A stretch of 64,000 bases of DNA, taken from contig NZ_LUHG01000087.1 in the NCBI RefSeq assembly GCF_001623405.1, forward strand, positions 1 through 64,000, read 5' to 3'. Shown piece by piece: positions 29,800-39,120 of the stretch; the first letter of the stretch is position 1, and each line of letters begins with the position of its first letter. Origin of the DNA: Hydrotalea flava (GTDB lineage Bacteria > Bacteroidota > Bacteroidia > Chitinophagales > Chitinophagaceae). The position numbers and the translations under genes are program-made. Below the pieces are notes generated by a model. It was not told the DNA's origin. It saw nothing but the letters and a program-made list of their open reading frames with translations, and searched no databases.

Positions 29800-32028
29800 T
29801 TAATTCAATAAGTTATCTAAAAAATCTTTGGCCCAAAAATTAATATCATAATAGGCAACCTGTTCATATAAACGTTGTAAGCGCATTTGTGCATCACCCT
29901 CGCTCATCAGTAATGCCTGCACTAACCCTTCTTTTAATGAGCGGGCATCATATGGGTTGGTTAATACGGCATAAGGCAACTCAACTGCGGCGCCTGCAAA
30001 TTCAGATAATACCAGTACCCCTTTAGCATTGGGTAGTTGTCCTTGCACAGCCACATATTCTTTGGCAACCAAATTCAAACCATCGCGTAGAGGGGTAATC
30101 CAAGCAATATCGGCAGCTGCATAATACGATATGATTTCTTCGAAAGGAAAAGAACGGAAGAACAAGCGAATGGGTACCCATTGCATGTTGGCATACTTAC
30201 CATTAATTCTGCCAACAGCATGCTCCAGATCATGTTGTGTTTTTTCATAAATTTTCATGCCCTGTGCCGGTGGTGTACAAATATTTACCAATTCAACTTT
30301 GCCATGAAATTCAGGATAGTCGTGCAAAAACTGTTCAAATGCCATTACTTTTTCAAGTGGTCCTTTTACATAATCGAGCCTTTCTACACTAATAATCATT
30401 TTTTTATTGGTAAATAAGTTTTTGATTTCTTTTATTTTTTTTAGTACAGATGCCTGTTGCATTAAAGGTTTAATATATTGTACATTAATGCCCACCGGGT
30501 TAGCGCCTAATTTCACTTTTCGTTGTGTGGTATCAATCAGCGTCGTCATTTGTTGTACGCCCAGCGCAGTGCTATAAGTTAAATAGCGTGGTGCACAATT
30601 CATTTTTTCAACTTCAGTTACCGGAAACAGACTTTTGGCAACATCAACAAAATTTTCAACATAGCGTGGAATGTGAAAGCCAATGTAATCGCATTGCAAT
30701 AAACTGCCAATTATTTCGCCGCGCCAGGGAAGAATATTAAAAGTATCGGCTGAGGGAAATGCAGTGTGATGAAAGAATGCGATGGTAACATCGGGCCTTA
30801 GTTCGCGTAAGAAGCCCGGCACCAACCACAAATTATAATCATGAATCCACACAATAGCATTATGATCGGCTTGTTCTGCTGCTTTTTCAGCAAATAATTT
30901 ATTGATGTTTACATAATGATCCCAATGATGATGGTTGAATTTTGCTTTATCGATAAATGAAAAAATAGTTGGCCAAAATGCTTCTTTTGAAAACGATTTG
31001 TAAAATATTTCTATTTCTTTTTTGGTGAGGCCAATTCTTGCGGCCATTAAATTCGGATATTTTTCTTTGTCAATATATAAATTGCGCAGTGGTTCACTTT
31101 TTTTTGATACTTCTTCCCATGCTACCCAAACGCCAGACCGGCCATTGGCAAAAAAGCCCTGTAAAGTAGGTAAAATACCGTTTGGGCTTTTGGGTGCAAC
31201 GTGCTTTTTCTGTCCGTTAACTTCAATTGTTTCATAAGGGAATCGGTGATACAGCATTAACAATTGTGGAATATTGCTGCTTTCTTTATGAATAATGATT
31301 TCGTCTAACTCGGTGATGTATTGAGACAGGTTTTCAAATTGTTCAATGGCTTCTAAAATGCCACCGGCTCCTGCTGATTTGGCATGATATATTTTTTGTA
31401 AAGATGTTGTTGCTTTAACCAGTGCCTCTTCAGCATTGCCTACCACTACGCCTTTAAAGCCACATTGGTACATGGCTAAATCGTTCAATGTATCGCCGGC
31501 TACTAATACTTTTTCTGCATCTTCATTCAGGTGTTTGATTAGTTTGGTAAGGGTGCTCCCTTTATTTACGCCTTTGGGTAAAATGTCTAAATATTTTCCT
31601 GCTGAGTGAATAATGTCGCAGTCTAATTCTTGGGCAATGATAGCAAATTGGTTTATTTCTGTTTCGTTTTGGATGAAAAAAGAACAGCGCCTTTGTTGTG
31701 GAACTTCCTGATATAGTAAACCCTCTATATGCTTCAACTGGTCTAAAATTTTCAGTTCGCCTGGCCAGATTTGTTCAATTTCGTTTTGTATAGGTTCAAT
31801 AGGCTCTAACGTATATCCATTTACGATGGTAGCACCTACATCACAAATAATAAAATCGGGATTGGGTATAATAGGATCATTTAATAAAGGGATTACTGTT
31901 TCTAATCCTCGTCCAGTAACAAATACCAATTTAAAGTTGCTGTTTTTTCTAATAAGCCGGTAAAGCTTTTGTTTGTCAATACTTTTACCACCTAAAAATG
32001 TTCCATCTAAATCTGTTGCTAGTATCAT
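29800..32028 (-). CDS. HAD phosphatase-GT20 fusion, probable glucosylglycerol-phosphate synthase/phosphatase
   Basis: 742 residues. Residues 1-235 are a Cof/sucrose-phosphatase-like HAD domain (ATDLDGTF, VTGRG, VLVAGDTLNDLAMY). Residues 240-742 are a GT20 glycosyltransferase (WIHDYNLWLVPGFLRE, FFHHTAFPSADTFNILPW, ISVERLDYVKGPLEK, TPLRDGLNLVAKEYV). Trehalose enzymes usually have the phosphatase behind the synthase; an N-terminal HAD before GT20 is the order described for glucosylglycerol-phosphate synthases of heterotrophic bacteria. gpsA, which makes the acceptor glycerol 3-phosphate, lies 10-13 nt upstream. Trehalose synthesis remains the alternative. Confidence 0.8.
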   Translation of the reverse strand: MILATDLDGTFLGGKSIDKQKLYRLIRKNSNFKLVFVTGRGLETVIPLLNDPIIPNPDFIICDVGATIVNGYTLEPIEPIQNEIEQIWPGELKILDQLKHIEGLLYQEVPQQRRCSFFIQNETEINQFAIIAQELDCDIIHSAGKYLDILPKGVNKGSTLTKLIKHLNEDAEKVLVAGDTLNDLAMYQCGFKGVVVGNAEEALVKATTSLQKIYHAKSAGAGGILEAIEQFENLSQYITELDEIIIHKESSNIPQLLMLYHRFPYETIEVNGQKKHVAPKSPNGILPTLQGFFANGRSGVWVAWEEVSKKSEPLRNLYIDKEKYPNLMAARIGLTKKEIEIFYKSFSKEAFWPTIFSFIDKAKFNHHHWDHYVNINKLFAEKAAEQADHNAIVWIHDYNLWLVPGFLRELRPDVTIAFFHHTAFPSADTFNILPWRGEIIGSLLQCDYIGFHIPRYVENFVDVAKSLFPVTEVEKMNCAPRYLTYSTALGVQQMTTLIDTTQRKVKLGANPVGINVQYIKPLMQQASVLKKIKEIKNLFTNKKMIISVERLDYVKGPLEKVMAFEQFLHDYPEFHGKVELVNICTPPAQGMKIYEKTQHDLEHAVGRINGKYANMQWVPIRLFFRSFPFEEIISYYAAADIAWITPLRDGLNLVAKEYVAVQGQLPNAKGVLVLSEFAGAAVELPYAVLTNPYDARSLKEGLVQALLMSEGDAQMRLQRLYEQVAYYDINFWAKDFLDNLLN

Positions 32029-32041
32029 AATTCAATTCATT

Positions 32042-33031
32042 TTATTGCAATTGTTGTTCTAATAATTTTATTTCATGATAGGGGTTAGCGTGTAAATGCA
32101 ACATCCGATAAACGCTATTAATAACGGGTACGTGCAATTGTAATGGTTGGATAATGGGATGCAATTCTTTTGAAGCATAATAACCTTCTGCTACCATTTC
32201 CATAATCTGCAAGGCTTTTCTAACCTGAATGCCCCGACCTACCAATTTGCCGAGTGTTCTGTTTCTGCTAAAATCAGAATAGGCTGTCGTTAATAAATCC
32301 CCAAAATAAACAGAATCAAAATAGTCTCTTTCTTTAGGAGCGATGGTATTAACAATGTGTTGTACTTCACGCATGGCATTACTGGTTAATACTGCTCTGA
32401 AGTTATCGCCATATTGCAGGCTGTCTGCTATGCCATTGGCAATTGCAATAATGTTTTTTAAGATGGCTACATATTCTACTCCTTTTGGATCAGTGTTTGC
32501 AATAGTTTTAATATAAGGTAACTGTAAACAGTTTCGTAGTTTACTAACTTTTATTTCGTCATCACCTGCAACAGTAACGTAGGTGTATTTGTGTAATGCA
32601 ATTTCTTCTGCATGGCAGGGGCCACTTAATACCATGCAATTATTTTTTAATTGCAGGTTTTCATGAATATACATGCCCGGTATTTGCCCCGAGCCGGGTA
32701 CAAATCCCTTAATAGAAACAACCACCTGAACGGTTTGTAACCATTCAGGCTTTAATGATTGAACTGTAGTTTGAACATAAGCAGCGGGAACAGCAAAAAT
32801 TACCCAGTCAGCACCACTCATGGCATCTTTAGCCTGAGTAGTAGGATGAATAAAATGAAGGTCTAAATCAGCCTGACTGAGGTAACGCGGGTTTCTTCCA
32901 TTTGCAAGAATATAATCTGCCTGTTTTTTTGTACGAACAAGCCATGAAACAGAATTGCCGCTCTCAGCAAAAATTTTTACCAGTGCTGTTGCCCAACTGC
33001 CGCTTCCAATAACGGCAATTTTTTCCGGCAT
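32042..33031 (-). CDS. gpsA: NAD(P)H-dependent glycerol-3-phosphate dehydrogenase
   Basis: 329 residues from the ATG at 33031; a GTG one codon earlier is also in frame. The Rossmann motif VIGSGSWATAL starts the protein, followed by WVIFAVPAAYVQ, VVSIKGFVPGSGQ, LSGPCHAEEIA and the conserved KNIIAIANGIADSLQYGDN. It makes sn-glycerol 3-phosphate from dihydroxyacetone phosphate. It can serve phospholipid synthesis, but the tight link to the HAD-GT20 gene suggests dedicated supply of acceptor for glucosylglycerol synthesis. Confidence 0.94.
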   Translation of the reverse strand: MPEKIAVIGSGSWATALVKIFAESGNSVSWLVRTKKQADYILANGRNPRYLSQADLDLHFIHPTTQAKDAMSGADWVIFAVPAAYVQTTVQSLKPEWLQTVQVVVSIKGFVPGSGQIPGMYIHENLQLKNNCMVLSGPCHAEEIALHKYTYVTVAGDDEIKVSKLRNCLQLPYIKTIANTDPKGVEYVAILKNIIAIANGIADSLQYGDNFRAVLTSNAMREVQHIVNTIAPKERDYFDSVYFGDLLTTAYSDFSRNRTLGKLVGRGIQVRKALQIMEMVAEGYYASKELHPIIQPLQLHVPVINSVYRMLHLHANPYHEIKLLEQQLQ

Positions 33032-33182
33032 CACTCAATAAATTAATAAAATAATGTATAAGATATTTGTAAAGTTAGCTTTTTTGAGTTAAAATGCATA
33101 TTAGAATTACATTAGAGAACCGAATACTGACAGGCTGCAACCCTGTATTAGCTTGTTGTGCAGAAGGAGCAGATGTAATAAC

Positions 33183-36466: not shown

Positions 36467-37849
36467 TTATTTAGCAACTTTTAGTAATTCTTCAAATTTG
36501 GGTTCGTGAATAATGATGTCTGCATGATGACTCACTAATTCATCTTTTGAGCAAAAGGCAATACCCATTCCCGCCTCTTTAATCATACACATATCATTTA
36601 AGCTATTGCCAACAGCAATGGTGTTTTCTCTTTTAATTTGATGCTTGTCTAATATGGCCAACATTGCGTTTGTTTTGCAAACCGCATGCCTGCAAAGGCT
36701 GTTTTTTCTGCTATACCAGAAAGAAGGTATTTTTACTTCGCCGGTGCAAATGCTTTTCGAAAATTCTAATTCATTACCTAATGAAAAATGCATGCCTAAT
36801 TTATTTTTAAAATAATTGGTAATGCAATCATAGCTGTATGAAACAACCCCAATCAAATAGCCTCTGCGTTTAAGTTCGTCGATAACTTCTGCTGCATCTT
36901 CTACAATCGGAATATCATCATCAGCTATTTGAATAAGTTCGCCAAATGATTTTCCCTTCAATAAAGTAGTTATTCTTTTTGTAATTGCAACAGGGTCAGT
37001 TTCGGTTGTCCGAATATCCATTATTTCTTTTTTTAAAGCATATTTTTCCGCAAAAGCATCAATAAATCTGCCTTTTAACAGGATATTATCCATGTCGAAC
37101 AGAATCAGTTTTTTTGTTTCGGGCAAGTATTCTGTTAATGCAAATTCCATCTGAGAGCGAATTTCATTCATTACAGACAGCTCTTCTAAATTATAATGAG
37201 CATTTTTTGAACGGGCAGCTTTTAAAATAATGGTTTGTGCTACTTCTTTACTCATTTTGCCCAATGCATGCCAGGGTTTACTTTTATTTTCTATATAACC
37301 AATTTCAACTTCTTTCATGCGTACATGCATAAAGTGCATATCTATCAAAATGCCAATATCTACGCCATAATCATCTCTAAAATCAATTTGTTCAAATAAT
37401 GCTTTTTTGCCTGCAATCATACCGCTTAAAGGTTGGCTGAAGCGCATAAGTTCAGGGAAAAAAATGCTTAATAGTGGTTTGGCAACCAGTTCTGTTACTC
37501 TGCCGGCGTTTCTGTTGAAAGATGATTTTACAAAATCAACCTCATTTTGTAAAATAGGTTGTGCAAGTAATGGTATGGTAAAATGTGGGTAAGGATCAAT
37601 ATCGCCATCTAAAAACAAAACAATATCATTTGCGGCACATAAAACGCCATCTTTCATTGAAGCGCCTTTGCCTAATTTGGTGCTAGTAATAACTTTGGCA
37701 CCGGCTTGTTTGGCTAAGGTAACGGTATTGTCGGTTGATTTATCATCAACCACAATTACTTCTGTTACCAATGGGTCTGATTGTGCAAATTGCACCACTG
37801 CAACAATATGTTCGGCTTCGTTTAAAGTGGGTATAATTACGGTAACCAT
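36467..37849 (-). CDS. GT81 glucosyl-3-phosphoglycerate synthase-like enzyme fused to a HAD phosphatase
   Basis: 460 residues from the ATG at 37849; the frame runs 12 codons further to a TTG, which is less likely. Residues 1-225 form a GT-A domain: VIIPTLNE, VVDDKSTDN, DGDID at 81-85, and the GpgS-like stretch VDFVKSSFNRNAGRVTELVA, GYGVDIGxLID type, and NKSKPWHALGKMS. Residues 248-460 form a SerB-like HAD phosphatase (FDMDN at 251-255, GNSLNDM at 414-420). One protein could thus make glucosyl- or mannosyl-3-phosphoglycerate and dephosphorylate it to the compatible solute. The sugar donor is not fixed by sequence. Confidence 0.82.
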   Translation of the reverse strand: MVTVIIPTLNEAEHIVAVVQFAQSDPLVTEVIVVDDKSTDNTVTLAKQAGAKVITSTKLGKGASMKDGVLCAANDIVLFLDGDIDPYPHFTIPLLAQPILQNEVDFVKSSFNRNAGRVTELVAKPLLSIFFPELMRFSQPLSGMIAGKKALFEQIDFRDDYGVDIGILIDMHFMHVRMKEVEIGYIENKSKPWHALGKMSKEVAQTIILKAARSKNAHYNLEELSVMNEIRSQMEFALTEYLPETKKLILFDMDNILLKGRFIDAFAEKYALKKEIMDIRTTETDPVAITKRITTLLKGKSFGELIQIADDDIPIVEDAAEVIDELKRRGYLIGVVSYSYDCITNYFKNKLGMHFSLGNELEFSKSICTGEVKIPSFWYSRKNSLCRHAVCKTNAMLAILDKHQIKRENTIAVGNSLNDMCMIKEAGMGIAFCSKDELVSHHADIIIHEPKFEELLKVAK

Positions 37850-37983
37850 GTGTAAACGTTTACTGGTTGAAAAGAGTGTATCCAATTTCCAGACTAAACA
37901 AATGGTTGGAAAGATAATTATTAAAAATTACTGAATATAGTTAAATAATTAATAATTATATCCTGTGATTCAGTGGGTGCAAT

Positions 37984-38010
37984 AAAAAAACCTTCGGTTT
38001 GGGTCCGAAG
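37984..38010 (-). terminator. Terminator downstream of manC
   Basis: On the minus strand CTTCGG pairs with CCGAAG across a 7-nt loop, followed by G and seven Ts. It separates manC from the GT81-HAD gene, so the latter needs its own promoter. Confidence 0.8.
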
Positions 38011-38037
38011 ATGAGTACTTAAAATTTTTTGAAAATG

Positions 38038-39120
38038 TTACAGGTATTTATCGCCTTTGTTGCGTTTTATTTCGGCTACGTACTCTTTGATAGCCTGTTC
38101 TTTCTCTTTTTTGCAAATCAGTAAAACATCGGGGGTATCTACAATTATGCAATCATCAATACCTTGCACTACCACTAATTTTTCCCGCTCGGCACTAATC
38201 ATACATTTGGTGGCATCTATTACAATTACATTATCGCTAACAACGGCATTGCCCAAATAATCTTTATCTAAATTTTCGTAAGCACTGTTCCAGGTACCTA
38301 AATCACTCCACCCAAATGCAGCCGGTAAAACATATACATTATCGGCCTTTTCCATAATCGCAAAATCGATGGATATATTGGTACAAAGGGGATAAATGCG
38401 GTGAATGGCATTTTTTTCTTCGGGAGTATTTAAATTGGTTTTTTCTGCATCAAACAATTCAAACATTTCGGGCTGGTATTTTTCAAATGTGTGTAAAACA
38501 GTGGAGACTTTCCAAACAAAAATGCCGGCATTCCATAAAAAATCGCCACTGCTTAAGAAAGTTTTGGCTAATTCTAAATTTGGCTTTTCGGTAAAAGTTT
38601 TTACTTTATAAATGCCCGATTTTATTTCATGTGCATCGTGTTGAATGTAGCCATAACCGGTATTGGGATAAGTTGGTTTAATACCCAAGGTAAGCAATGC
38701 CTGATGTTCTGTAACAAATTTTAAAGCCTTTAAAGCAATTTTTTGAAAGGTGTCGCTGTCTAAAATCATGTGATCGCTTGGCGCTACAATTAATGCAGCA
38801 TCCGGATTTTCTTTTTGTAGTTTAAAGGCAATGTAGGCAATACAGGGTGCGGTATTTTTCCTGCTGGGCTCAGCAATAATATTGTCAACATTAATTTGTG
38901 GCAGTTGCGTACTTACAATGTGGGTGTACTCTTGCGAGGTAACAATAAAAATATTTTCAGCAGGAATAAAGGAAGCAAAGCGTTCATACGTCCACTGAAT
39001 TAAAGTTTTGCCGGTATTTAAAATATCTAAAAACTGTTTAGGGTAAGCAGTTCTGCTTTTGGGCCAGAAACGGCTGCCAATTCCGCCGGCCATAATGGCT
39101 ACATAATAATTTTTATTCAC
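38038..39120 (-). CDS. manC: Mannose-1-phosphate guanylyltransferase
   Basis: 360 residues, GTG start at 39120 (no nearby ATG). The pyrophosphorylase signature AGGIGSRFWPKSRTAYPKQF is at about 11-30, then APSDHMI and FTEKPNLELA, and WNAGIFVW. The C-terminal isomerase domain found in longer bifunctional ManC proteins is absent. It makes GDP-mannose from mannose 1-phosphate and GTP, used for polysaccharides or, in this context, possibly for mannosylated compatible solutes. It lies 18 nt downstream of the KpsF-type gene. Confidence 0.92.
   Translation of the reverse strand: MNKNYYVAIMAGGIGSRFWPKSRTAYPKQFLDILNTGKTLIQWTYERFASFIPAENIFIVTSQEYTHIVSTQLPQINVDNIIAEPSRKNTAPCIAYIAFKLQKENPDAALIVAPSDHMILDSDTFQKIALKALKFVTEHQALLTLGIKPTYPNTGYGYIQHDAHEIKSGIYKVKTFTEKPNLELAKTFLSSGDFLWNAGIFVWKVSTVLHTFEKYQPEMFELFDAEKTNLNTPEEKNAIHRIYPLCTNISIDFAIMEKADNVYVLPAAFGWSDLGTWNSAYENLDKDYLGNAVVSDNVIVIDATKCMISAEREKLVVVQGIDDCIIVDTPDVLLICKKEKEQAIKEYVAEIKRNKGDKYL

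Follow-up and report, generated by a model that had tools for sequence, protein, structure and literature searches.

One gene of Hydrotalea flava encodes, in a single polypeptide, a GT81 glycosyltransferase followed by a HAD-family phosphatase domain, and the same fusion recurs as a conserved family. The gene lies in the window, by which we mean the whole 64,000-nucleotide stretch of DNA analysed here. Judging from its sequence, the protein is probably a bifunctional glycosyl-3-phosphoglycerate synthase/phosphatase, and synthesis of glucosylglycerate or mannosylglycerate by one polypeptide is therefore likely.

A GT81 and a HAD domain in one chain

The gene and its domains are arranged as follows:

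36467..37849, minus strand: GT81-HAD fusion gene, ATG start at 37849, 460 amino acids and a stop codon
37175..37849, minus strand: GT81 domain with GT-A fold, residues 1-225 (NF010496, E 3e-51; AlphaFold2 model against GpgS and MpgS)
37118..37174, minus strand: flexible linker, residues 226-244 (pLDDT <50)
36470..37117, minus strand: HAD-IB phosphatase domain with C1-type cap, residues 245-460 (TIGR00338, E 4e-32; structural matches)

The presence of both domains in one chain, claimed in the sequence-only reading, is confirmed. The open reading frame (with an in-frame TTG at 37885, adding 12 residues, as alternative start) gives Pfam matches to Glycos_transf_2 at residues 3-153 (E 3e-21) and to a HAD-type Hydrolase at 247-427 (E 7e-11), and its sequence matches in the PDB include GpgS of Mycobacterium tuberculosis (6e-27), PSP of M. 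jannaschii (2e-22) and MpgS of R. xylanophilus (5e-21). The NCBIfam models for GpgS (NF010496, residues 2-225) and SerB (TIGR00338, residues 244-458) bear out the limits proposed earlier, about 225 N-terminal and 210 C-terminal residues; both scores are below the curated cut-offs, with 174 bits against 262 and 112 bits against 144, respectively. Other fusions score 162-192 bits with NF010496 and a stand-alone Bacteroidota GpgS (L205) scores 390, and no tested member of the fusion family passes the TIGR00338 cut-off. The GT55-type MPG synthase model (the MgsD type) was absent from the Pfam matches at 0.01 and from the best 25 of the 38 NCBIfam matches.

The AlphaFold2 model, built from a 40-row alignment (mean pLDDT 87.6, pTM 0.50, low confidence in linker 226-244), predicts two confidently folded domains with no fixed mutual orientation. 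The modelled GT81 domain superposes on GpgS (7pe4) with Z 29.4 and an rmsd of 1.4 A over 213 aligned residues, tied with the match to R. xylanophilus MpgS (3f1y, Z 29.2), and on the GT78 mannosylglycerate synthase with Z 22.5. The modelled HAD domain matches SerB of H. pylori (3m1y, Z 27.4) and M. jannaschii PSP (1l7o, Z 27.3). An assembly or frameshift artefact was ruled out, since we found 73 non-redundant fusions across many genomes and the window copy shares 84-87% identity with those of three other genomes of the genus.

The arrangement, unfamiliar in the reading from the sequence alone, is no single case: the family is conserved and spans two phyla or more. Of 398 genomes drawn evenly from the order, 62 have it, in 24 of 166 genera, nearly always as one full-length frame. 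Other families and classes of Bacteroidota also have it, as do 5 of the 392 genomes from the phylum to which a Gemmatales MAG (planctomycete) belongs. Among named organisms it occurs in Niastella vici, Terrimonas sp., Longitalea luteola, Chitinophaga sp. S165 and the Gemmatales MAG SKYG129. A SerB-type HAD tracks the GT81 gene, nearly every tested GT81-HAD genome giving a match.

The trees of both domains, which are quick trees with some long branches, join the fusions in a single group, distinct from stand-alone GpgS in the GT tree and from SerB in the HAD tree, and on this sequence evidence the fusions share a common ancestry. In two genomes the halves are adjacent separate genes, 8 bp apart (L146) or overlapping (L145). 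Because these pairs sit inside the fusion clade in both trees, the halves appear to have separated secondarily while remaining neighbours, which indicates that the putative synthase and phosphatase activities stay linked. No full-length match to the fusion was found among the plasmids searched. Contigs classed as viral in IMG/VR (L250-L256) carry GT81-like stretches with 31-37% identity over about 210 residues, with neither a fusion nor a HAD domain in the match.

Active sites of the two halves

The following motifs were located in the two domains:

37601..37609, minus strand: DxD metal motif D81-G82-D83, aligned to Asp134-Ser-Asp136 of M. tuberculosis GpgS
37493..37504, minus strand: GRVT acceptor motif, residues 116-119, corresponding to GpgS Val186/Thr187
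37352..37369, minus strand: YGVDIG, residues 161-166, spanning the equivalents of GpgS Tyr229 and Glu232
37082..37096, minus strand: HAD motif I, D252-M-D254-N-I256, nucleophile D252 (family motif comparison)
36677..36694, minus strand: C386-x-H388-x-x-C391, predicted zinc ligands, directly before motif III Lys392
36593..36607, minus strand: HAD motif IV, N415-S-L-N-D419 (family motif comparison)
36587..36589, minus strand: C421, fourth predicted zinc ligand, two residues past the motif IV Asp

In the M. tuberculosis GpgS complex, Glu54 contacts the ribose, Asp136 the metal, Lys114, Asp134 and Glu232 form a network, and Val186/Thr187 hold the carboxylate of 3-PGA (PMC2581804). The corresponding residues of the fusion (E11, D83 and K61-D81-D164) are conserved or nearly so; D81 is invariant, D83 is present in all members but one, and R117, V118 and T119 of the GRVT motif in nearly all family rows. 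Taken together, the equivalents of GpgS E54, K114, D134, D136, V186/T187, Y229, S210 and M269 are kept in nearly all members, with Glu232 replaced by Asp164 as in the GT78 MgS (Asp192). The donor side differs from GpgS, because the metal-loop His258 is replaced (Asn188), the diphosphate ligand Arg261 has become Lys or Gln at position 191 and the Arg101 loop of the base pocket is missing. Asn260 is also replaced, and Glu212 of the PLSGE motif is Met144. The PLSGE contacts have been linked to mannose exclusion and the Ser81/Arg101 region to base choice (PMC2581804). As both are altered, the donor cannot be read from the sequence: at the donor-specific positions, compared with those of GpgS and MgS, glucose and mannose both appear possible, and the earlier hedge between the two sugars stands.

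A mannose-1-phosphate guanylyltransferase gene lies upstream (38038..39120, minus strand; TIGR01479, E 5e-89, below cut-off), and we considered an operon with it as evidence for GDP-mannose. This was rejected, because a terminator-like hairpin with a T tract lies between the two genes (37990..38012, minus strand; called by pattern, in a region where the total number of such hairpins is at chance level) and because the two genes adjoin only in the window genus. The guanylyltransferase gene is thus weaker evidence for GDP-mannose and is probably on a separate transcript.

For the phosphatase half, 78 HAD domains were compared (73 fused and five split or solo), and 53 of them, including the window copy, keep all of Asp252, Asp254, Lys392 and Asp419. 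These intact members also keep Ser or Thr at 337, Ser in the window copy. The HAD motifs described from the sequence alone are thus present as far as the nucleophile, Asp254, Ser337, Lys392 and Asp419 are concerned, with departures at Thr256Ile and Asp415Asn: all 52 other intact members have Thr at 256, and 48 of the 53 have Asp at 415. The window copy deviates further by Tyr338 and a one-residue insertion, and the SGG motif of SerB, mostly SDS in the fusion family, reads SYS here. Asn at 415 is shared with three other members of otherwise canonical motifs (L007, L177 and L179). In MtSerB2 the equivalent mutant D341N still reaches about 15% of the normal kcat and 9% of the normal kcat/Km, while the nucleophile mutant D185N and S273A have no activity (PMC4270767). 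The residual activity of D341N suggests that the window phosphatase is probably weakened rather than dead. Within the genus dN/dS is about 0.04-0.06 for the GT half and 0.06-0.11 for the HAD half; the latter evolves about two times faster, yet both halves are under purifying selection.

The four Cys/His residues (C386, H388, C391 and C421) are absent as a signature from the SerB comparison rows. All four are present in 52 of the 53 intact members, in one of them (L038) with a one-residue shift, and none in the remaining one (L175). The 25 degenerate HADs carry all four in four cases and none or one in 21, so that two or three of the four occur in none of the 78 domains; the rows of this tally are related and not independent. 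Seven later sequences, three of which repeat earlier members, have all four, two of them with a one-residue shift. The signature probably forms a structural zinc or other metal site, the simplest reading of an all-or-none pattern for which other explanations are hard to find. A Cys/His zinc loop is found in a comparable place, shortly before the motif III Lys, in GmhB-type HADs (heptose bisphosphate phosphatase), which are without the SerB-type C1 cap and act on a different substrate.

Lost phosphatases and gene neighbourhoods

In several branches the phosphatase appears to be lost by motif. The nucleophile is Asn in all 14 sequences sampled from a group (g8) assigned to Chitinophaga by its clustering with the named L041, Glu in the second copies of another genus and Gly in one fusion; other degenerate members lack Asp254 or motif IV. 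Where a genome has two copies, one HAD can remain intact (G012 and G351), and in two genomes the Asn form is accompanied by an intact HAD of this family encoded on its own (L147 and L148). The dead domains remain in frame and often carry a C-terminal extension of about 50 residues (L013, L041, L160-L165 and other g8 loci), which suggests a retained non-catalytic role. As the Chitinophaga HAD is dead by motif and yet retained, dephosphorylation in the same chain would not be essential everywhere. One tentative reading, which we hold possible but not probable, is that a SerB-derived lineage of glycosyl-3-phosphoglycerate HADs gained the zinc site and, after fusion to GT81, repeatedly became a dead domain with another role, as in the Chitinophaga case, where it may for example sense or regulate the glycosyltransferase.

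Two further genes of the window are of interest beside the fusion:

29800..32028, minus strand: HAD-GT20 fusion of the GgpPS type (glucosylglycerol-phosphate phosphatase/synthase; TIGR02398, S6PP at the N-terminus)
32042..33034, minus strand: NAD(P)-dependent glycerol-3-phosphate dehydrogenase (gpsA), adjoining the HAD-GT20 fusion (Pfam/NCBIfam)

The HAD-GT20 fusion of reversed domain order, which the sequence-only reading had placed a few genes away, is real and passes its cut-off (657 against 569 bits), and the parallel that this reading drew with the GT81-HAD gene is supported. Together with gpsA it predicts a glucosylglycerol pathway at 29800-33034 in a member of Chitinophagales. The gpsA gene adjoins GgpPS also in the distant L033, where, as in the window genus, GgpPS, gpsA and a TauE gene are near the GT81-HAD fusion. 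Co-occurrence is patchy (GgpPS above cut-off in 7 of 40 genomes), and a strict functional link is therefore not claimed.

In many lineages a UspA gene lies within about 80 bp downstream of the fusion on the same strand, and in others CLC channels and DUF389 proteins abut it; a two-component system is also found nearby. Na+/H+ exchangers (L330 and L334), MscS (L330) and NhaD (L336) lie beside it elsewhere. By association, these neighbourhoods are suggestive of a role in osmolyte or ion stress. In the Gemmatales MAG phylum (G799, L331:3-9444) the fusion is the first gene of an apparent operon that also encodes an ABC sugar importer, an OtsA-like GT20, DUF5752, a TreT-like synthase and a trehalose phosphatase, possibly a multi-solute cassette. 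Among relatives of the window clade (L028:10753-11925, L156:6697-7869 and L187) the fusion is followed, after 4-6 bp, by the start of a conserved 390-aa protein that is hydrophobic at its N-terminus and matches nothing in Pfam.

Proposed function, alternatives and known systems

As a bifunctional enzyme, the fusion would work in two steps. First, the N-terminal GT81 domain would glycosylate D-3-phosphoglycerate at its 2-OH by a retaining mechanism, with an NDP-sugar as the hexose donor. The C-terminal HAD domain, joined to it by the flexible linker, would then cleave off the phosphate by way of an aspartyl-phosphate on Asp252, and glucosylglycerate or mannosylglycerate would be set free as a stress or osmolyte compound. 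The acceptor 3-PGA, the sequential action, the product and its physiological role are what we infer. Speaking against the bifunctional reading, both halves fall below the curated cut-offs, and Asn415 and Ile256 weaken the HAD motifs of the window copy.

The low GpgS score, the replaced His258, Asn260 and Arg261, the missing base pocket loop and a HAD cap pocket unlike those of the characterised relatives compared could instead indicate that the acceptor of GT81 is a different small acid or phospho-acid and that the HAD dephosphorylates that product, or acts on the donor side, so that the compound is not a glycosylglycerate. We regard this as unlikely, as the family conserves both the carboxylate-binding GRVT motif and the K-D-D/E network, and 3-PGA is the substrate of the nearest solved relatives. 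Still less probable, in our view, is that the window HAD is a weak or regulatory remnant, the GT making a phosphorylated glycoside that another phosphatase finishes. Asn415, Ile256, Tyr338 and the insertion, the low activity of MtSerB2 D341N and the outright loss of the nucleophile in relatives agree with such a remnant; the retention of the nucleophile, Asp254, Ser337, Lys392, Asp419 and all four Cys/His, a HAD dN/dS of about 0.1 or below, and the Asn at 415 in three otherwise canonical members speak against it.

The C-terminal half had also been called SerB-like, which holds for fold and family (TIGR00338, Z 27) and not for function. In SerB, Glu20 binds the amino group of phosphoserine (PMC6321591). 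The SerB comparison rows have Glu at this position; its equivalent is Arg261 in the window copy and Arg, Ser, Lys or Gly in all 53 intact members, never Glu, and the Met43-Phe49 segment of SerB is deleted. At 1e-10, no SerB-like HAD was found in 17 of 18 relatives without the fusion family, and SerC is present in all seven of those tested for it that have neither (G004, G008, G011, G013, G018, G019 and G022). Another enzyme must thus serve them as phosphoserine phosphatase, and serine synthesis here would be independent of the fusion HAD. From the loss of Glu20 and this phyletic pattern, phosphoserine phosphatase function was rejected. That the cell nevertheless relies on the HAD half to dephosphorylate phosphoserine, its joining to a GT81 enzyme of the same 3-PGA node being accidental, is very improbable, although this domain is the best SerB match in the genome and SerC is present.

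The bifunctional reading can be set beside several known systems. GpgS of GT81 (M. tuberculosis Rv1208, M. hassiacum) has the GT-A fold and most active-site residues in common with the fusion (Z 29; about 36% of the aligned residues identical). The mycobacterial enzyme is a separate protein with a separate phosphatase, GpgP, whereas here the synthase is fused to a HAD, Glu232 is replaced by Asp and His258 by Asn, and the loop that binds the base is shorter. R. xylanophilus MpgS (PDB 3f1y, 3o3p), also GT81 and of the same fold, was solved with GDP-mannose and, unlike the fusion, is without a phosphatase domain in the solved protein. The HAD-IB enzymes of SerB type (M. jannaschii PSP, MtSerB2) have the same fold, cap type and catalytic motifs as the fusion HAD, in which Glu20 is replaced, the SGG motif changed and CxHxxC...C added. 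In MgsD the synthase is of GT55 and the phosphatase an MPGP-type HAD. MgsD, from Dehalococcoides mccartyi, carries out both mannosylglycerate steps in one protein (PMC8490865) and is thus a working analogue, a synthase and phosphatase for a glycerate glycoside in one chain, with a synthase of another family than the GT81 paired here with HAD-IB. GgpPS likewise joins an osmolyte-glycoside synthase and phosphatase (PMC10873239), and one is encoded 4.4 kb from the window fusion, with an unrelated glycosyltransferase family, another acceptor and reversed domain order. The design principle of an osmolyte-glycoside synthase and phosphatase in one chain is thus already known from MgsD and GgpPS. In the searchable open-licence literature we found no description of the GT81 and HAD-IB architecture, nor of its zinc-like signature or pseudo-phosphatase branches.

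If the bifunctional reading is true, Chitinophagales would gain a previously unassigned route to glucosylglycerate or mannosylglycerate, and the one-chain osmolyte synthase/phosphatase would have arisen with another pairing of enzyme families besides those of MgsD and GgpPS. The fusion would also offer a one-gene tool for glycosylglycerate production, and its live, split and dead phosphatase domains would provide a natural series for studying the evolution of pseudo-enzymes.
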